DNA of 64,000 nucleotides, from positions 54,556,872 through 54,620,871 of the forward strand of contig NC_134844.1 in assembly GCF_965363235.1 (NCBI RefSeq). Reading direction: 5' to 3'. A program made the position numbers and the translations under genes. Shown here piece after piece: positions 8,580-62,392 of this stretch. Origin of the DNA: Mytilus galloprovincialis (Eukaryota > Mollusca > Bivalvia > Mytilida > Mytilidae). The notes under the pieces were generated by a model that was not told the DNA's origin, did not search any database, and saw only the letters and a list, made by a program, of their open reading frames with translations. The number at the start of each line of letters is the position of its first letter. Position 1 is the stretch's first letter.

Positions 8580-9650
8580 ATACGTCTAGCGCTGTAGATT
8601 TCAATTCAAGTAATCAAGCACTGAAGATTTAAAGTCTAGTGCTACATAGATTTGAAGTCAAGCATAGGAAGTCTAGCGCTGTAGATTTAGAGTCTAGTAC
8701 TGTAGATATACAATCAAGTGCTGGAGATATAGAGTCTAGCGCTGTAGATTTAAAGTCTAGCGCTGTAGATATAAAACGAGCTCTAAAAATAAAAAGTCAC
8801 GCGCTGAAGATATAAAGTCAAGCGCTGTAGATTTAAAGTCAAGCGCTGTAGATTTAAAGTCTAGCGCTGTAGATTTAAAGTCCAGCGCTGAAGATATAAA
8901 GTCTAGCTCTGTAGATATAAAGTGAAGCACTGAAGATGTAAAGTCGAGCACTGAAGATGTAAAGTATAGCGCTGGAGATATAAAGTGAAGCACTGAAGAT
9001 GTAAAGTCTAGCTCTGGAGATATAAAGTCGAGCACTGAAGATGTAAAGTCGAGCACTGAAGATGTAAAGTCTAGCTCTGGAGATATAAAGTCGAGCACTG
9101 AAGATGTAAAGTCTAGCGCTGGAGATATAAAGCGAAGCACTGAAGATATAAAATCGAGCACTGAAGATATAAAATCGAGCACTGAAGATGTAAAGTCTAG
9201 CGCTGGAGATATAAAGTGAAGCACTGAAGATATAAAGTCGAGCACTGAAGATATAAAGTCTATAGCTAGCTCTGGAGATATAAAGTCGAGCACTGAAGAT
9301 GTAAAGTCTAGCGCTGGAGATATAAAGTGAAGCACTGAAGATATTAAATCGAGGACTGAAGATGTAAAGTCTAGCGCTGAAGATATAAAGTCTAGCAATG
9401 AAGATGTTAAATTTGGCGCTGTAAATTAAAAGTCTAGGTCTGTAGATTTAAAGTCAAGCACTGAAGATATAAGGTCAAGCGCTGTAGATTTTAAGTTCAA
9501 CGCTGTGCATAGATATAACGTTTAGTTGTTGAGATACAAAGTCTAGTGCTGGAGATGTCAAATAGTAAAGTCTAGCGCTCTATAGTCCAACCCTGATGTT
9601 GCACACTCCGGTTCCGCAAATATAGTCTAGCGTCGCAGATATATAAAAAG
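8580..9650. repeat. Long minisatellite, 20-21-bp unit
   Basis: About 50 copies of a unit close to GAGCACTGAAGATGTAAAGTC, with variants such as AGCGCTGGAGATATAAAGTC and AGCGCTGTAGATTTAAAGTC. Because the unit is often exactly 21 bp, the minus strand stays open for 213 codons (8757-9398) as a seven-residue repeat, e.g. SVLDFIS. The edges (8580-8750 and 9420-9650) are more degenerate. Confidence 0.92.
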
Positions 9651-52017: not shown

Positions 52018-52023
52018 GGAGAT

Positions 52024-52039
52024 GAGGCCCCTCATGGGG
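52024..52039 (+). repeat. Left terminal inverted repeat
   Basis: GAGGCCCCTCATGGGG, preceded by the target duplication GGAGAT. Its core CCCATGAGGG/CCCTCATGGG is itself nearly palindromic. Confidence 0.85.
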
Positions 52040-52045
52040 GGGTCC

Positions 52046-52185
52046 TAGTAATCACATAATCACCATTTTTTTGCCAATATAATCATATAATCATTAAATA
52101 TTTGCCTTGGTAATCAAAAATTGATTATCTTTAGTAATCAAATAATCATAAACTAAAATCTTTGTAATCATTAAATAACAGTTTA
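52046..52185 (+). repeat. Left subterminal TAATCA array
   Basis: About eight TAATCA words, several in pairs such as TAATCACATAATCA and TAATCAAATAATCA. Nearly all are on the plus strand; one inverted TTGATTA is present. The array ends about 30 bp from the stop codon of the gene. Confidence 0.85.
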
Positions 52186-52214
52186 AATGTTAAATATTTA
52201 ATAACAAAAAAGCT

Positions 52215-55200
52215 TCAACAGTTGTAAATAAAATCTGGGTCTGCTCTGAAATGTCTATCTCTTTTACTCTTTCTTTGGTTTTCTTTGGGAAGCTCTTCCT
52301 CTTCCTCATCCATCTCCTCTGGTGAAATAGTATCACCCGCATCTTTTGCTGGAAGAATAGATGTATACAATTCTACTGAGAGAATAATAGTATCATCTTC
52401 CACCTCAACATCCTCAAGCTCTATTGTTCCTAATATGCCACTACTTTTGACCTTAGTGTTCATTCCACTAACAAACTGAAGAGGAAGAAGATTGGCCTGA
52501 TGGTACATTATACATTTTACCTCTTCTTGCAGTTCAACCAAGTTTTCTAACAATTTGGCAACAACCAATTTCTGATTCAATTTCAGATATATTAATGTTT
52601 TATTACTAAGTATTATTTTCTGGCTTGATACATTAGATTTTCTGGTGTCTTTTTGAAGACAGTTGTCAAGATTACCAACATCTATCTCTTTAACTGCTGT
52701 ATCACCTTTTTCATAACATGTTAATGGTAATGTTCCGGGCTTATCTTTAGTTGTTAAACCCCTGACTGTGTTTTGTCTGACACTCTGACCAAACTCTGAA
52801 CGCCAACATCTTAATTTTGACATTTGATCTGCACTCAATTTCTTTTTCACAGGCAAGTCCATTCTTGGTATTTCTTGAAATGAGACATATGAGTTGTCTG
52901 TTCGATGATAATATGAGTTTTCACCAGTAAAATAAACAAAACTGGATTTAGTTACTCTTTTCAGAAGTTCTCGTGTGCAAGAGTGAAATCTTTGACTAAA
53001 CTGAAGAACAAGAGGCATGTCATTTCCTTGCCTCATTTCTGCAAAGAGATTTTCAACAACTAATGTTAGACAAGACTTGATATTCAATCTCTCCTCAAAT
53101 GTTGGTTTGACTTTCCTTACAAGATCAAGTACTTGTTGTAAGCTGTCTATCATCATCTTCAGGTCTGAAACTGACTGAGCAGAACATGCACCCTCTGGAC
53201 CCTGTAAAGTTTTGTTAATTCCTGTAAAATCTCTAATACGTTCATTGCATTGAATGAGAAACTCATATACTTTCTGTAAAACAGCAATCCTGTCTTCAAA
53301 ACTATCTTCATTACTAACATTTGGCAAAGTGACACCAATTGCTTTGTGGAACATGTTAAGGAACTCAAGAAATTTGACAAGAGGGGAAGAACTAATGACC
53401 ATTCTCACAGATCCTGCAGCAATGTCTGTCACGAAGATTGTACCCTGTTCTGTGCACAATCCTGCTGGTTGTTGAAACTCAGCTTCTACACCATCTCTGT
53501 GCCCCGTTTTTCCCACTCCTGCATAATCAGTTAAGGTATTACTCCTATGCATACCAGATAAAAGTTTTATTTTCTTATCCTGTATGTCAGTCAAAACAAG
53601 ACCATCATGATAAACTGCAATTCCAAAAGCTTGTTTTAAATCTGATCCATTTGAGACTAATTTCGTTACATTTTCAGCTAATTTTTCCCCGTTTCTTTCG
53701 ATACTGAAAATACCTCCTTTTGCCAAATCAGATGATGCAAAATATACATAATTGTCTTTCAAAACCATGTTGTAAATGAGTGGTATGCAAGTGTAAACTA
53801 TCTGTATAGTACTTGCTGTTACAGTAAGTCCATTGCTTGTCAAAGTGAGCATACTTATATTTCCTGATTTTAAGTCTGAAACAATCAATTTATCTGCTCC
53901 TATAGTACAAAGTCCTGCAGGGGCATCTATTTCATGATCCATGATTTCAAGTTTTTTGGCTTTTTGTCCTGATCCAATTACATTTCCTGAACTTTCTGTG
54001 CTGACTTGATTATCTTTAATCCATTTTTGTAACTTTTGTTGCAAGTCTGCTTTCTTCAGGGTTCTATCTTTATTTTCCCATAACCCCTGGTCTTTGAGAG
54101 CTTTTTGCAGTTGCTTTATGGTCATTCTGTCGGGATCGTAAACAGAATTTCCTTTCAAATCTAAAAAGAATATGGCTTTCTCTGTTAAATCAGACACATA
54201 AATAACCTCCTTAGTATAGGCAACCCCAATAGGATGGTTTAACTTTCCTGTAATTTCTACAACATCAACGGGATAATGCAATCGTGCAGAAAACAGTTTG
54301 CCTTTGGCTGCATCAGCTATCAGTAACATCCCATTTTCAGTAATACAGACTGCAATGGGTGAAGACAGTGTCCCCTTTTTGTTGTCTTCATATAACCGGT
54401 ATTTTTCTGGTATCATTGTATGAGTTATTGTCTTAATACCTGAAACAATGTTTCTCACTGGTTTACTTGATATCTCCAAAGATGCATCAACATCCATTCT
54501 ATCTCTATTTCTGCATGCTGCAACTGTCAGGTGTGGTCTTAGTTTATCTTTTAAACTTGGGTCTCCACGTAATGTTCGAAGAAGTACCCGATTGATGCGG
54601 CATCCATCAACGAGAAGAAACCAATTACTGAAGTGTCTGGCTAAACGCTTTCCTACATGGACACCATCTGGTACACAACATGCAAGTGAGACATTCGGAT
54701 CAATGCTTCCATTTTTTTTTCTTTCTTCAAACATTTCTTCTGCACCTTTATTTTTTGATTTGGAGTCCATAGTAATCACAAGAACCATTAGCTTTACACA
54801 TTTTTCTTTTTGTCTTAAACAGTTGCCACAACATCGAAGGGAAGGGTCTATGTGACATTGTCCATTTCGTTTACAGTCTTGGCAAACGGATCTTTGTTCT
54901 AAACAAGTTTCACATTTTGATGAGCAGTTACCACTTACAATCACTCCATTTTCAGTGTTAATGTTACCAGATTTTATGCACTGCAAACATATTTGCAATT
55001 GATTACAATGGAGATTGAATTTTTCAAAAGTCTCAGCAGAAGAAATTCCTTTACAATTATAATCAACACCTACAGGAAGAGTCAGTTTATTATCCAGGGA
55101 AGTGAGACATGTAACTTCAGCTTCTTGCACAAACAAACTTTTTAGCATTTCCGGAGAGGGATTAGGGTGCCTTTCAATGAATTCATTATCTATTTTCAAT

Positions 55201-55728
55201 GTTCCGCCTATCAATACACCTTGCCTAATGTCGAACATTAGCCCAGGTTTTAACGCCATTCCATCTTTCTGCATTGCAACCGGTATAACTTTTGTGTAAC
55301 CATTGTTAAGTAAAGAAGTTACGACAGAATCCTCTTGAGCACAAATTTCCAAAAAGCTTCTTAAAAGGTTACAATGGATACCATTTTCTGTTGTATATCC
55401 ACTTACATTTTTGTGTCTTGCAAAATGGCTAGGAAGTGGAAGATTCCATGACTTCCAATCAAAGTGTTTAATACCACCCTTTCCTGTTCCTAAAAACCCT
55501 GGACCTCTGAGGATATTCAAGACCTTCTTATGTCCATGATATTCAATTGTTTCTACAAACTCAAGAATTCTTTCATCCCAATGAAATTGTTTTTTAGGAT
55601 CTTCTACTTGTTTCACAAAATTCAAAACATTATCAATGTACACATAAAATATGTGATTTTTCTGCAAAAGCCCTGAATTGAGCACGTCCTGAAGTTTCTC
55701 ACATATACTATCCCAATAGGTAAATCTC
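52215..55728 (-). CDS. Coding exon 6 (residues 340-1510)
   Basis: The acceptor is TTTTTATTTCAG before 55728; the G at 55728 completes the split Arg codon AG|G. The stop is TGA at 52217-52215. A stand-alone reading frame would extend to an ATG at 55787, but those 19 extra residues lie upstream of the acceptor and read as a hydrophobic intron translation, so they are excluded. This exon holds the Cys cluster, the propeller, the SAP-like segment and the candidate catalytic acids. Confidence 0.9.
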
Positions 55729-58700
55729 CTGAAATAAAAACAAAACACAATTATTATGGTGTGGGATGTGGTAACAATAAATAACATTGCCTAGGCACAA
55801 TTTGAATTATGATTTGCAAAAATTCATCTTCGTGTAATATTTGTGATTGGACAATATTAAACCATGGAAGTAGGCATAGTTTTGACTACTGATCACTAGA
55901 TTGAACTAGACAATGAACTATATTGGTATGTTTTCATGTGTGTGTGAACCTGACTGATCCTGTATACATAACCAGGGACGTATATATATGTCCTTGACAT
56001 AACACACTTTTATGTCATAGGTTTAAATGAGTATCAAAATTCGTTAGATTATTGACATAACTGGTAAATACATTTCATTTCTGATCATTTCTTTCTGATA
56101 AATCTAATGATGGCTAATGCAACCTGTTGTCATGTGTTTTCAAGTACTGAATGCGAGATGTTTTTTCAAGTATTTAATGTTAGAGAACCACTCGTGCAAA
56201 GATCTATCTTGGATCACATAGCAATTGTTATAAAGTATGAAATTCATGATGGTTGTTGAAGGCCATATGGTGGTTCTAAAGGTCAGATTCTAAACATCAA
56301 CAAAAACAGTGTACATTAAATATTAAAACAAGAAGCTCCCAGGAGCCTGTAGCGCTCACCTGGTCTTTCAGTTGGCATTTCAGGGGGAATAACTCCAAAC
56401 GAGTCATAAGATTTTTCTGAAATGTTGGTACATAGAACCTGGGTGTCCATGGGGTCCAAAGTTTAACAAAGGCTTTTTTGAGAAAAGGCTTTAAAAATCT
56501 TCTACTGGAGAACCAGCAGTAGCAAGGCATCATAATTTGTCTGAAACCAGTAGGACATGATGTTTCAAGTTTATACAAATGAAGGTCCCAGAGTCCATGT
56601 GGTCCGAGCACTTGGGGTTCAAAGTTAGGCTTTAATGGGAAAAAGCTTTAAAAATCTTCTTCTTAAGAACCAGCAGTAGCAAGACAGTTGTGATTTGTCT
56701 GAAACATCAGTAGGACATGATGTTTCAAGTTTGTACAAATGAAGGTCTAGACCTTCATTTGTACAAACTCTACTGCTGCTTCAGACAAAGTATGACTCCC
56801 TTGCTACTGCTGGTTCTTCTTCAGGAGATTTAAAGCTTTTCCCATTTGAAACCCATTTTAAAACTTTCTTTGGACCCCATGGACCACCATATGAACAAAC
56901 TAGAATCCCCAACTACCAAGGATCATCCCTACCAAGTTTGGTTAAATTTGGCCCAGTGGTTTCAGAGGAGAAGATTAAAATGTGATAACTTTATGACAGA
57001 CGCTCAGTGGTAGCAAAAGCTCACATGACCCTTTGGGTCAGGTAAGCTAATAAGACATTTAGCATTGAAAGTTTATCCCTGAGTCAAGAATTTACCTAAT
57101 ATTGTCAGAAATTTGGTCTGCGTAAACTGCTGTTGACAAACCATCTGAATCATATTCACTCTCAGATGATAAGCTTGAAACACTTTCAAAACTGGATGTA
57201 AAGTCATGTAGCTCATTCTCTAATATGCAACTTGATTCTCTAAATGATGCAGGAGAACATGGGGGACTTTCATCAAGCCATGTATTGTCTTGTACATCTT
57301 GCAACATTAGACTATAAAAAACAAGAAATATTTCATGACACCTTTTATTATACATCTAATACAATAAAATAAAATGAACTAGAACGACTAGCAAGCAATG
57401 ACTAGATTTTCATCTTAAATTCTAATAAAACAAATAAAAATACAACAAAACCTTCATTTGCCACAACATGGACAATAACAAAACAAACAACTTAATAACA
57501 AACTCTTAGAACGAGGTAAACATTTGGTTGGTTTTTGTAATCAGTTACAAAATTAAAGGTTGAATAATTAAAATAATTGGCTTTTCTGGGCACAGCATGA
57601 TAGCACGGACTGCAACATGTCACTGAAGTAAAGTTGAGAGTTGAAGCAAGTGAGAACATAGAACTTTGTTGACCACAAAATGATATTAAAATTCTACAAA
57701 ACTCATTTCATGCATATGAAGTCTAACAACTATTGACAGCAAACAATCATGGACCAATCAGTTTGTAGATCTGGTCTAACTGTTAGTTTTGTAGTTAAGG
57801 TATATAAACCCCTATGTTTTATTTTAAGCGATGGGGGCCATGTTTTTTTTTCAAGACTGATATAATGGATAAAATTGAAAAAAAAGACACATACATGACA
57901 TAAAGATAAATTGCATTTTTTTTGCAGTTGTATAAAAACAATATGTAAATAAAAATGTGTAAATAAAAAATCACATCACAAAAAGAGATAAAAAAAAAGT
58001 ACAGTGAAACCTGTCTAAACCGAATCCCTTTGGGACAAAAATTTGTATTCAGTTTAGACAGGTATTCGGATTACACAGGTTTTATTTGTATAGACATGAT
58101 AGATACTTAAAACGGGACTATATATGGAGTTTGGTTTACACAGATTTTCGGTTTACTCAGGGTTCGGTTTAGACAGGTTTCACTGTATTACAATATTCTT
58201 GAATACAAATTTATACATTGAAACTGTAATGTATGGTGTTTGTCACATATCATTAAAAACCCACAGACAACCCTATATATTGAAGTCACAACTTGTTTCA
58301 TTTACAAAACTATTGTCATATGAAATTCAAATGGACAGATATAACTGGTAAATGCTTATAGCACGTGAATATTCATTTGATGTCAACAAATGAAGATAAA
58401 GTACTTTCTTGCTTACATATCAGAAGGCTCCTCATCACTGGGAAGTCCCCCACTGTGAAGTGAATCATCACTTTGAACCTCATCCAATTTAGAAGAAGTG
58501 GACTTTTTTTCTTCTGATGTAGAATGTTTCAACAAAAACTCTTTTAATTTCACAGCTGATCCAGAAGTTGCTGCCTTTTGGACCCTCTTTGCATTACAAC
58601 TTTTCATATCTAAAAGTAAAAAAATTGTATACAGGTCATATTGGTCTACAGATACTACAACTAAAGTTATTGACATAATCATTAAAACAAAATATCCAAA

Positions 58701-61700
58701 TTACTGCAATCAGAATGACCAATTCTGGTGTTTATATTTCAATGTGGGGGAATAGAATAAAGAATGGTAACAGAAATGTGTCAAAGCGACATTAACCCAA
58801 CTAAAATGTACAAAACAACCCAAGGCCACCAATGGACCTACGTATATAACACAGTGATTAATCCTGTACCCAGAGGCGGGCTTTATGTTTATAAGGGGTA
58901 TTGAGTAAAACAGAGAAATAGATCTTTAGTGATCTTTAGTAAGTAAGGTTGTTTTAAAAGAAAGTTGATTGCTGTCGGAAGTATTGTTACCTTTGATAAT
59001 GCAGTATGGTTAAACATAAGGTAATATTTATATTTTATTTTTAATTCACATGCTCTAAAACTTAGTTGGTTAACTTTAAAAGGCTGTTTGTTCCTTAAGG
59101 GGGGAGGGGAGGGGGGGGGTAGTGTGTCCATCTGTAACAATCTTGTAGACACTATAACAGCCAGTCCTTAATTTTATATAGCATACATATATCCCAGTGC
59201 TTTTAAGAATTGGGGAAAATATGGTGCTTCATGCCATTCAAAAGACTGAATTGTCATAAAGGGTGTAATTATTACTCAATCAAAATAGCTTTAACATTTG
59301 ATTGCATATCATATAATAGTACGATTAAGGTACATGTATTAGTTATACATGTATAACAAATCTTGCTAACAATAAAGTGTGCTTGTTTCATATATATACT
59401 TACGCTTATTTAGATTAGTCGTACCAAAAGATCTATGCAAATGTATGTCTACACTGCATGCACATGACACTAAGGTGGGTGATTTGATGACGACATCAGG
59501 AAACTTGTCTTTTACTTCTAAAATAATACACAGTAATCAGTATTAAAGGTTGAGATACATCAAAGCATTTTAAAGATATAACACTGTTAAAGATAAAGCT
59601 ACTTGCATAGTATCCATAAAGTGTAATAATGGTTTTATCTTCATCATTTAGTCATTGTTAAGCTAAGCTGCTCTTAATATTTATCTGTGAGTGATTGATT
59701 GATGGTTTAATGCCACGGCTGCATCGATAGCTTATTAATATATAAGGTGTATGTGTATATGAAATGAATATATATGAAGCCTGTTTTGTATAATTTATAT
59801 ATACTGAACTGAATCTTTACCTTGCTAGCAAACAAGGTAACAATACTCTTCTCAGACACATTATTGATTCCTGAGCCAACCAGTCATTATTCCAAATTCT
59901 GAATGTTGTGCTTTTTTTTTATTTACAGTACATATATTTCAAAGTTTTTTAATAAGAAAAATACCTACAATCTCACTTACTTTTTTTAAATATCAACATT
60001 CTATTTTCTGCATTTTTAGGAGGCCTTCCGACATTTGCCTTCTTTGCTGGTTTGACATCATCCGATTCAGCTGGTAATTTTCTTTTTGCCATTGATTTTT
60101 TGTCCATCAATATCTGATTTACTGATCTCACTTCCGTCTCTACTACTTTAACTGAAAATTAATGAATTGGGTCATTAATAACAATATTTACAGTGACACT
60201 AAGTACATGTAATGACAGTTGAAACAACTGTATACATTTTTATTGATACAATTTGATATGCAAACATAATGGATATAAATAGACAGTGGCAAATCCAGAT
60301 TTTTTTAAAAGGGGGGGGGGGGGGGCTAATTTTTTTTCAAAATAAAAGGGGACTGGATAAGAATTTGGGGATACAGGATATTGCAGTTTAAATGTTTTGT
60401 GTTTTTAAACTTTTTTTTTTTCTTCTTTGTCTGCATCCACGCCTATCTTCGGGAGTGCGCTAGGTTGCACCTGCCTCATATTAATAAACAGCTGCGCCAT
60501 GAGCGCATGATACGCCCGACGTCTTGTGTGAAAGTTTTATGCAATAATCATAAATAGTTTCTGAGGAAGTTTTAAGCAATAACCATTTATTGTTTTTGAG
60601 ACATGGCGGGACATGTGAAACCCCCCCACCCTGTTTTTTTTTTTTTACAAATATCACTAAAATAAAATTTTGAATCAAACCAAAAAGTATACAGATCTTT
60701 AAATTAGTATAACAAAGAAGTGTGTACAGTTTCAAGCAATAATCATAAATTGTTTTTGAGATACGGCGCGACATGTAAAAAAAAAACCCTCCCCTTTTTT
60801 ACAAAATACTCAATAACTCAAAAATAAAATTTTGAGTCATCACCAAAAAGTATACAGATCTTTAGATTAATATAACAAAGAAGTGTGTAAAGTTTTAAGC
60901 AATAATCATAAATCGTTTTTGAGATACGGCGCGACATGTAAAAAAAAACCTCCCCCTTTTTTACAAAATACTCAAAAACTCAAAAATGAAATTTTGAATC
61001 ATCACCAAAAAGTATACAGATATTAAGATTAATATAACTAAGAAGTGTGTAAAGTTTTAAGCAATAATCAAGAAACGTTTTTGAGATACGGTGCGACATG
61101 TGAAAAAAAACACACCCCTGTTTTAGTTACAAAGTGCCGTAACTCAAAAAGTTTAAATCTTATTTTCACCAAAAAGTATACAGATCATTTGACCATCATA
61201 AGAAACAACTATATTAAGTTTCATGAAATTTTGATAAGTCGTTCTCAAGTTACGGTGCAACATGTTTACGCCGGACAGACGGACAGACGGACGGACGGAC
61301 GGACAGACGGACGGACACCGGACATTTGTATACCATAATACGTCCCGTCAAAATTTTGACGGGCGTATAAAAATTATCCAAAACGTTTGAATTTGTATAC
61401 CTATAATCTCATAATTTTGTTGAATAAGTGGCATCATTAATGTGAACTGGCTTTCTGTGTCAATAGCAAACACTCTGCCTTTTGGGAACTCTGGCTCTGG
61501 CTCCATTCTCCTAACGCTGAGCTTGATTTTATAGTTCATCACAAATATTTCATTTGCTCTTTCTTTAATGCCACATGTTGCGTTCATCCGTTCTAGAACT
61601 TCTGACCGACTTTCCACACTGTCCTCGTCATATTTGAAGAAAAATGACCAACGTACAGCCGGTTTATCCTGGCCTGCTTTGTAGATAGCGCACGTCACTT

Positions 61701-61725
61701 CGTGCAATACCTTTTTTGATGTCAT
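52215..61725 (-). CDS. Putative transposase with NHL-like beta-propeller, 1,510 aa, six exons
   Basis: Coding exons, 5' to 3': 61725-61401, 60151-59981, 59517-59404, 58609-58417, 57311-57096, 55728-52215. All introns are GT-AG and all split codons join in frame (4,533 nt). Residues 1-108: unknown domain. 109-165: basic, with AKRK and an AT-hook-like GRPPK (150-154). 250-339: acidic, Ser-rich. The core starts near 340: KDGMALKPGLMFD (Asp495), a 13-Cys cluster (581-650), PDGVHVGK (Asp694), then six NHL-like blades (about 796-1117) with a SAP-like segment (872-914) between blades 2 and 3, then VVENLFAEMRQ (Glu1232) and an acidic-basic tail. The D/D/E assignment rests on resemblance to P-element/THAP9-type RNase H transposases and is inference; propeller and cysteine cluster are better supported. 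Its place between TIRs argues for a mobility function. Confidence 0.82.
56325..57050. repeat. Dispersed repeat in intron 5
   Basis: Ends reading AGCTCCCAGGAGCCTGTAGC ... CTCACCTGG and, inverted, CTCACATGACCCTTTGGGTC with AGGTAAGCT. Inside are two tandem copies of about 185 bp ('accagcagtagcaag', 'gtaggacatgatgtttcaag') and a perfect 42-bp palindrome at 56728-56769 centred on GGTCTAGACC. It belongs to the mollusc repeats that begin with 'agctcacctg', as at 63317. Confidence 0.75.
57096..57311 (-). CDS. Coding exon 5 (residues 268-339)
   Basis: Acceptor TTTTTTATAG, donor AG|GTAAAT. Encodes an acidic, Ser-rich segment (ESVSSLSSESEYDSDG) with SPPCSP. It joins exon 4 as AT|T (Ile) and exon 6 as AG|G (Arg). 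Confidence 0.88.
57312..58416 (-). other. Intron 4, with MITE
   Basis: Donor GTAAGC at 58416, acceptor TAG before 57311. AT-rich; the only inserted feature recognised is the MITE at 58002-58185. Confidence 0.85.
58002..58185. mobile_element. TA-flanked MITE, 184 bp
   Basis: The ends CAGTGAAACCTGTCTAAACC and its reverse complement are flanked by TA on both sides (58000-58001 and 58186-58187). CAGTGAAACCTGTCTAAACCG-type ends belong to widespread mariner/pogo-like MITEs. It inserted into intron 4 without disturbing the frame. Confidence 0.9.
58417..58609 (-). CDS. Coding exon 4 (residues 204-267)
   Basis: Acceptor TTTTACTTTTAG, donor AT|GTAAGC. Begins by completing a His codon (C|AT), then MKSCNAKRVQKAATSG. 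It is Ser/Lys/Glu-rich and ends GGLPSDEEPSD; probably disordered. Confidence 0.88.
58610..59403 (-). other. Intron 3
   Basis: Donor GTAAGT at 59403, acceptor TTTTAG. Contains a G-rich run at 59098-59120; no other feature recognised. Confidence 0.82.
59404..59517 (-). CDS. Coding exon 3 (residues 166-203)
   Basis: Acceptor TTATTTTAG, donor C|GTAAGT. It completes AAA (Lys) from exon 2 and encodes VKDKFPDVVIKSPTLVSCAC and onward to a split His. Frame fits on both sides. Confidence 0.85.
59518..59980 (-). other. Intron 2
   Basis: Donor GTAAGT at 59980 (perfect consensus), acceptor TTTTAG at 59518. AT-rich; a poly-T run at about 59911-59921. Confidence 0.85.
59981..60151 (-). CDS. Coding exon 2 (residues 109-165)
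   Basis: Acceptor AATTTTCAG, donor A|GTAAGT. Basic segment with MAKRKLP and KKANVGRPPKNAEN, i.e. an NLS-like stretch and an AT-hook-like GRPPK core. A DNA-binding or nuclear-targeting role is inferred. Confidence 0.87.
60504..61371. repeat. Dispersed repeat in intron 1 with 162-bp tandem units
   Basis: Four to five copies of a unit of about 162 bp; the landmark GCGCGACATGT falls at about 60606, 60767, 60929, 61091 and 61257, each followed by a homopolymer A then C/T tract. A (GGACAGAC)n run at 61270-61315 and an end reading GTCAAAATTTTGACGGGCGT follow. The whole lies between exon 1 and exon 2. Confidence 0.8.
61401..61725 (-). CDS. Coding exon 1 (residues 1-108)
   Basis: Starts MTSKKVLHEVTCAIYKAG; donor G|GTATAC at 61400-61395. 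The ATG at 61725 is the first in frame of this exon. Mixed charged and hydrophobic sequence (WSFFFKYDEDS, KIKLSVRRMEPEPEFP, IDTESQFTLMMPL) of unknown fold; no zinc ligands in a pattern. Joins exon 2 as G|TT (Val). Confidence 0.85.
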
Positions 61726-61962
61726 ATTCGTGTTCTTACCAAACTTTCTACATGATAACTGGTTCCTTACTGTTATTTCATACAGAACGCTAACGAACGC
61801 AAGTCAAAAACGGGAACCGGAATAAATTAAAATGTAAAATTAAACCGATATCGGGTTTCTAATTTCCGTAAATTGAGATTGCTGTGCGTTTACACGCTAG
61901 GTGATCGTAGGTATAGTTGATCAAAGTTATCAGTTATATTTTAGATAATTTAAAAAACCTTT

Positions 61963-62097
61963 TAGATCATTTTATTTTTTTTAAACTTGGTAATCATTTA
62001 ATCAAAAATACAGTCCTAGGTAATCAAATAATCATGAAATATTTGGCTTAATAATCAAATAATCATTAAAAAAACGGCCAAGTAATCACATAATCAA
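61963..62097 (+). repeat. Right subterminal TAATCA array
   Basis: About eight TAATCA words, mostly paired as TAATCAAATAATCA, all on the plus strand like those of the left end. The words GAAATATTTGGC here and TAAATATTTGCC at the left show that the arrays are direct, not inverted, repeats. Confidence 0.85.
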
Positions 62098-62100
62098 AAA

Positions 62101-62116
62101 CCCCATGAGGGCCCTC
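62101..62116 (-). repeat. Right terminal inverted repeat
   Basis: Reverse complement GAGGGCCCTCATGGGG, followed on the plus strand by the target duplication GGAGAT (62117-62122). Confidence 0.85.
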
Positions 62117-62392
62117 GGAGATCCCCTCCTCACCTCACACCGCGATATTGCGCCATTTATCGTTTATTCTATTTTCTTTCACAAGACAAAATTTTTATGA
62201 TTTTTTTTTTATTAAAGTTATAGATCAAGGTATGTCTAAAAATGAAATCTTTATTGAATGGGTATAAAATGCGTTTCAGCTTAACCTTGAGAGAATCAAA
62301 CACAAATTTTAAATTAAGGTGGCAAAATACATGACACAATCTCCCGAATGACGTTGTTCAATTCGTTACGTCTTTGCACTTGTGACGTCATC

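Follow-up and report, generated by a model that had tools for sequence, protein, structure and literature searches.

The P superfamily of DNA transposons, represented by the Drosophila P element and THAP9 (PDB 6p5a, 6pe2), encodes transposases with a split RNase H fold in which one catalytic aspartate lies on β1, a second at or after β4, a DxxH motif follows β5, an insertion domain comes next, and the catalytic glutamate sits on a helix. In the passages of PMC7776569 compared here, the P element generates 8-bp target duplications, and its insertion domain binds GTP through contact residues that include K400, D444, and D528. An element with the same order of catalytic parts, but a very different insertion domain, is present in a 64,000-nucleotide stretch of the Mytilus galloprovincialis genome (contig NC_134844.1, positions 54,556,872 to 54,620,871 of the forward strand; the whole stretch is hereafter called the window). 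This element is very likely an autonomous cut-and-paste transposon, present in full length, whose lineage has not been described and whose DDE transposase combines a split RNase H core distantly related to that of the P-element transposase (THAP9) with an insertion domain in which a six-bladed NHL propeller is accompanied by a SAP-like module. Its ends, its 6-bp duplications, its family, and the conserved order of its motifs are established by observation, and the position of the propeller is given by a structural model.

Element ends and copies across the genome

The element is delimited by the following features:

52018..52023, unstranded: target site duplication GGAGAT, left, adjoining the left end
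52024..52039, plus strand: terminal inverted repeat GAGGCCCCTCATGGGG, on the gene 3' side
52048..52177, plus strand: subterminal direct array of TAATCA units, gene 3' side
61990..62100, plus strand: subterminal direct array of TAATCA units, gene 5' side, in the same orientation as at the other end
62101..62116, minus strand: terminal inverted repeat GAGGGCCCTCATGGGG, gene 5' side
62117..62122, unstranded: target site duplication GGAGAT, right, adjoining the right end

A preliminary description, made from the sequence alone, had taken the 16-bp ends, which differ at one base, and the exact GGAGAT duplications as the borders of a complete DNA transposon, and these borders stand. The ends are identical at 15 of 16 positions, and a scan of the window for the 16-bp end with up to three mismatches found only the two ends themselves (0.09 expected; two or more matches in 1 of 100 shuffles). 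In the 1.385-Gb assembly, the left 16-mer has 1,058 exact copies (522 + 536), and facing ends 170–200 bp apart define 828 short elements (415 + 413); control patterns returned none in either search. The short elements carry the same single-base difference between their ends as the window element, establishing this difference as a fixed feature of the family. Both ends were present in six of the first eight loci inspected, five of these six with an exact 6-bp duplication. In a readable set of 30 distinct elements fitting the 170–200 bp pattern, all from contig C1, 27 have exact 6-bp duplications, three have one mismatch, and none has a longer duplication (shuffled pairing of flanks gave 264 in 6,000). 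Exact 6-bp duplications also flank two slightly longer elements outside this pattern and set (L001 and L003), the window element, one deleted copy, and both family-2 copies described below. The insertion sites of the 30 elements are varied, A/T-rich hexamers.

Inverted ends and duplications of constant length at independent sites, as in DDE cut-and-paste transposition, together with the predicted transposase fold, place the window element in a real mobile family. The repeats are short, and one might therefore imagine that ends and duplications match by chance around an ordinary host gene; the 1,058 left ends and the 27 exact duplications speak against this reading, and the 828 paired ends, as opposed to none in the control pattern, refute it, leaving it a negligible probability. 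Hundreds of recently spread short mussel repeats gain a likely owner.

A protein search of the assembly gave at least 43 matches (40 of 96 candidates scored). Among the matches listed, pieces at 92–100% identity occur at six places (the window and contigs C11, C3, C1, C6, and C2), and only the window covers all 1,170 residues encoded by exon 6 without a stop. In the C2 copy the middle is missing, and ACTAAT stands on both flanks; internally deleted copies are likewise described for the P element in the part of PMC7776569 consulted.

A second family comprises six loci (L022–L026 and L029) at 27–29% protein identity to the window and 96.7–99.9% DNA identity to one another in the pieces listed; L022, L023, and L024 retain full-length open frames. 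Its 3' end, reverse-complemented, reads GAGGGGCCTGATGGGG and has 57 exact copies in the assembly (32 + 25). One copy (C3:10145676-10158810) starts with GAGGGGGCTGATGGG and has ATCTAT on both flanks, and another, on C2, has ATAATT at its 3' flank and ATAATT plus the 5' end at the expected side, a string found at three places in the genome, one of them at this copy. Similar ends, the one-base asymmetry, and 6-bp duplications are therefore shared by two families whose proteins are only about 29% identical. In two further relatives, L019 (32% protein identity) and L020 (33%), the 3' side appears by eye to end in ...CCCCCCCTC, with a GAGG start.

The subterminal arrays run in the same direction at both ends, as the preliminary description had it. 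In gene orientation, TGATTA occurs 8 times forward and 0 times reverse in the outer 200 bp at one end of family 1 and 8 and 1 times at the other, compared with about 0.2 forward occurrences per 200 bp in the element interior. Family 2 instead carries CGTGAT in its outer 250 bp (6 forward and 0 reverse; 4 and 0), and the 3' ends of L019 and L020 carry CTGTTAT- and CGGGAT-type repeats. With inverted ends and directly oriented arrays, the element is polar, and the arrays are putative transposase sites. Stretches with G/C runs and differing directly repeated units were also seen downstream of the gene in L019, L020, L031, and L033.

An intact frame inside exact duplications had been read initially as a sign of recent transposition. 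At the family level this holds, since 21 of the 30 short elements equal the consensus with gaps ignored, in a sample that the requirement for exact ends biases toward young copies, and copies of family 2 reach 99.9% identity to one another; the near identity sought among copies was thus found. The right halves of the short elements have a median identity of about 97% to the window's right end, and the left halves about 84% to its left end. For the window copy itself, the signs of recent movement are its duplication and open frame, and a search with its joined host flanks found no empty site in the assembly. In exon 6, the window copy has 13 nonsynonymous and 3 synonymous differences from the C11 copy and 12 and 4, respectively, from the C3 copy; each of these two copies has one new stop. 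In addition, the window protein has lysine at exon-6 position 323 (54759-54761), two residues from the second catalytic aspartate, where 33 of 35 aligned rows have glutamate. These substitutions do not suggest strong recent selection on the window copy, and because of the nonsynonymous excess and the K323 change, "intact" denotes here an open frame rather than established function. A start codon lies about 310 bp beyond the element (from 62432) and opens a reading frame that by eye resembles a signal peptide; a host promoter region may have been the site of insertion.

The transposase gene and its predicted catalytic core

The element's interior is occupied by a single gene on the minus strand:

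61401..61725, minus strand: exon 1, start codon at 61725; the deposited protein P0003 starts at the same residue
59981..60151, minus strand: exon 2, from splice sites and comparison with deposited proteins
59404..59517, minus strand: exon 3, encoding with exon 4 a CxC...HxxxC finger-like stretch (by eye)
58417..58609, minus strand: exon 4, from splice sites and comparison with deposited proteins
57096..57311, minus strand: exon 5, acidic and Ser-rich
52215..55728, minus strand: exon 6, transposase core, 1,170 aa plus stop

The six exons, joined across five GT-AG introns, encode 1,510 aa plus stop in an unbroken frame, in agreement with the six-exon gene of 1,511 codons (stop included) proposed earlier. 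Three deposited Mytilus proteins, two of which carry the name "predicted," between them contain all five junctions: P0003 and P0002 match four of five each and P0030 three of five, and P0003 has a 14-aa insertion at the third junction. The finger-like stretch of exons 3 and 4 has no Pfam match. Intron 1 contains a 162-bp tandem repeat in 3.8 copies (60567-61186) followed by a CGGA microsatellite (61272-61316). By eye, inverted-repeat halves are visible in introns 4 and 5 (58010-58190 and about 56560-56790), possibly representing nested short elements; Tandem Repeats Finder (TRF) rows at 58045-58080 and 58129-58181 overlap the former. Elsewhere in the window, a low-complexity reading frame with DFISSVLDFTSS-type repeats spans 8757-9398.

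Exon 6 encodes the following features of the predicted core:

54624..55382, minus strand: RNase H-like core, N-terminal part (exon-6 residues 116–368), predicted
55263..55265, minus strand: candidate catalytic D1, exon-6 D155 (full-length D495), conserved in 32 of 32 rows with a letter
54798..54989, minus strand: Cys-rich insert between α1 and β4 (residues 247–310), nine conserved Cys
54765..54767, minus strand: candidate catalytic D2, exon-6 D321 (full-length D661), 35 of 35
54657..54668, minus strand: DxxH motif directly after β5, D354 in 34 of 36 and H357 in 36 of 36
53391..54437, minus strand: six-bladed NHL β-propeller (residues 431–779)
54009..54119, minus strand: SAP-like helices looped out of the propeller (residues 537–573)
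52953..53387, minus strand: C-terminal helical part of the insertion domain and RNase H core (residues 781–925)
53052..53054, minus strand: candidate catalytic E, exon-6 E892 (full-length E1232), 20 of 20

The predicted structure presents the strand and helix order of an RNase H-like fold, with β5 at residues 350–353 before D354/H357, then the insertion, and E892 in a helix at 891–898. The conserved D, D, and E within this modeled fold are those expected of a DDE transposase, and catalysis by them is predicted. In the mechanism we envision, the enzyme would bind the subterminal direct arrays and pair the GAGG-type ends, D495, D661, and E1232 with metal ions would cut, and the ends would be joined to target DNA 6 bp apart, preferably at A/T-rich sites. 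The same enzyme would move the 828 short copies in trans, and the propeller could function in assembly or target choice.

A predicted propeller within the P-type insertion domain

A Foldseek search with the predicted RNase H core retrieved the Drosophila P-element transposase as the best match (8e-6), and the list is headed by two P entries, separated by about four orders of magnitude from the first other match (0.15). The DDE and DxxH motifs are in register with those of P transposase, and the correspondence does not stop at DxxH but carries on into the P insertion domain. The modeled protein thus has the DxxH directly after β5 and the insertion domain before the E helix that mark the P superfamily, as well as structural similarity to the solved P transposase. 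The Pfam model of the P RNase H domain, PF21787, scored above its cut-off in one of four genome relatives (L020), was weak in 1 of 15, and gave no match in the window protein. Conceivably, though with fairly low probability, the element belongs to the wider group of DxxH-type DDE transposons (hAT, MuDR, Kolobok, Dada, IS256), and the match to P reflects the shared core only; the isolation of the P entries in the Foldseek list, the one relative exceeding the P Pfam cut-off, and a register that extends beyond DxxH into the P insertion domain all argue instead for a P-related enzyme.

The propeller lies at a defined place in this register, within the P insertion domain between the helix bearing V401/S409 and the helix preceding F443/D444. 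Twenty aligned relatives, counting the window protein, extend to the catalytic E, and every one of them has 319–369 residues at this position between the DDE motifs. The SAP-like helices are recognized in relative L022 with 24.0 bits, barely above the 23.9-bit cut-off. NHL and SAP domains are common in host proteins, and the other copies bear stops and nonsynonymous changes, as might be seen if a host gene had been captured or domesticated within a transposon moved by another enzyme. We consider this very improbable and reject it on the basis of the conserved propeller position, the retention of the same gene and end type by two families at about 29% protein identity, and the lack of a rival open reading frame (ORF) in the element, where the next longest, at 151 aa, includes exon 1.

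The GTP contacts of the P insertion domain are another matter. Of 24 aligned P proteins, 21 retain K400 and all retain D444 and D528. In the propeller lineage, the K400 place is occupied by D in 20 of 21, the D444 place has D in only 1 of 20 (P0029), and none of 20 proteins has D among the four residues before the catalytic E, the D528 place falling in an alignment gap; V401 persists in 18 of 21 and S409 in 15 of 21. Nor does PF21788 (TNP-like_GBD) match the window protein or the relatives scanned, although it does match the mussel P element L072. Because these three contact positions, judged from the alignments, are not conserved, the enzyme is predicted to be GTP-independent.

The kinship with P is a remote one. 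Short inverted ends plus subterminal repeats are shared with the P element, whereas GAGG-type ends, a Cys-rich insert before β4, the NHL propeller and SAP-like helices of the insertion domain, and the unconserved K400, D444, and D528 positions set the element apart, and it falls outside strict P membership because its duplications are 6 bp rather than 8 bp. P0003, whose N-terminus is complete, gave no THAP match at E values up to 10, but neither did the mussel P ORF L072 at E values up to 1, which makes the domain a weak criterion. The element probably represents a new P-related lineage of superfamily rank. P-element proteins are also encoded in the mussel: its genome holds 51 PF21787 matches (one of them in L020), compared with none in any of 14 control genomes, and loci L072–L074 have near-identical 917-aa open frames at 98.7–99.4% DNA identity, which suggests recent P activity in mussels.

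Comparison with other transposon superfamilies

The preliminary description could assign the termini to no superfamily. This holds for the ends and duplication length, which fit no family in the passages compared (PMC12730594, PMC4455052, PMC8230255, PMC3706591, PMC7776569, PMC10294476), but not for the enzyme, which looks P-related. As portrayed in those passages, Dada elements resemble the present one in their DxxH-type DDE transposase, many exons, 6–7-bp duplications, and extra domain in the core; however, the Dada domain, an exonuclease, lies between D2 and DxxH, and Dada elements lack terminal inverted repeats and target small RNA genes. The 16-bp inverted ends rule Dada out, and the sites in 30 insertions are varied and A/T-rich. 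IS3EU elements share 6-bp duplications, but fungal members are described with TAYGG..CCRTA termini and inverted repeats of more than 30 bp, and the GAGG ends exclude them. The KDZ group (Kyakuja, Dileera, Zisupton), reported with 7- or 8-bp duplications in the part of PMC12730594 consulted, is set apart by duplication length alone. The hAT superfamily (hAT6) is similar in its DDE catalytic domain with C/DxxH and a large insertion, and 6-bp duplications are described in some hAT families. Features of hAT elements are a hAT dimerisation domain and YARNG ends. Polintons also generate 6-bp duplications, but were set aside, as the element holds no further long ORF.

The titles and abstract beginnings of open literature on NHL or propeller domains and transposases, bivalve transposons with 6-bp duplications, THAP9 or P elements in Mytilus, and Mytilus miniature inverted-repeat transposable elements (MITEs) described no such element, a search whose scope lay outside Repbase, Dfam, and most subscription journals. 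The terms "P element," "P superfamily," and "NHL" are all absent from the main text of a bivalve transposon survey (PMC10294476). No natural transposase whose split catalytic core encloses an entire propeller came up in the open literature searched. DNA transposon superfamilies are few, and the mussel element makes testable the evolution of insertion domains in RNase H transposases, a possible loss of the P-element GTP requirement, and the function of a propeller in a recombinase.

A parallel is found in RAG1-RAG2 and ProtoRAG, where a β-propeller also works with an RNase H recombinase. RAG2 is a separate protein with a Kelch-type propeller; in the mussel element, by contrast, the propeller is of the NHL type and forms part of the transposase chain itself. 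It is enticing to speculate, although we hold this broader proposal somewhat less probable than its opposite, that the element defines the first described superfamily whose P-type insertion domain, GTP-controlled in P elements, has been rebuilt around an NHL propeller and a SAP-like module. Its enzyme would act independently of GTP, its propeller would assemble the complex or read the target, and its polar direct arrays would co-vary with the enzyme across families, making this transposase a one-protein counterpart of RAG1 plus RAG2.
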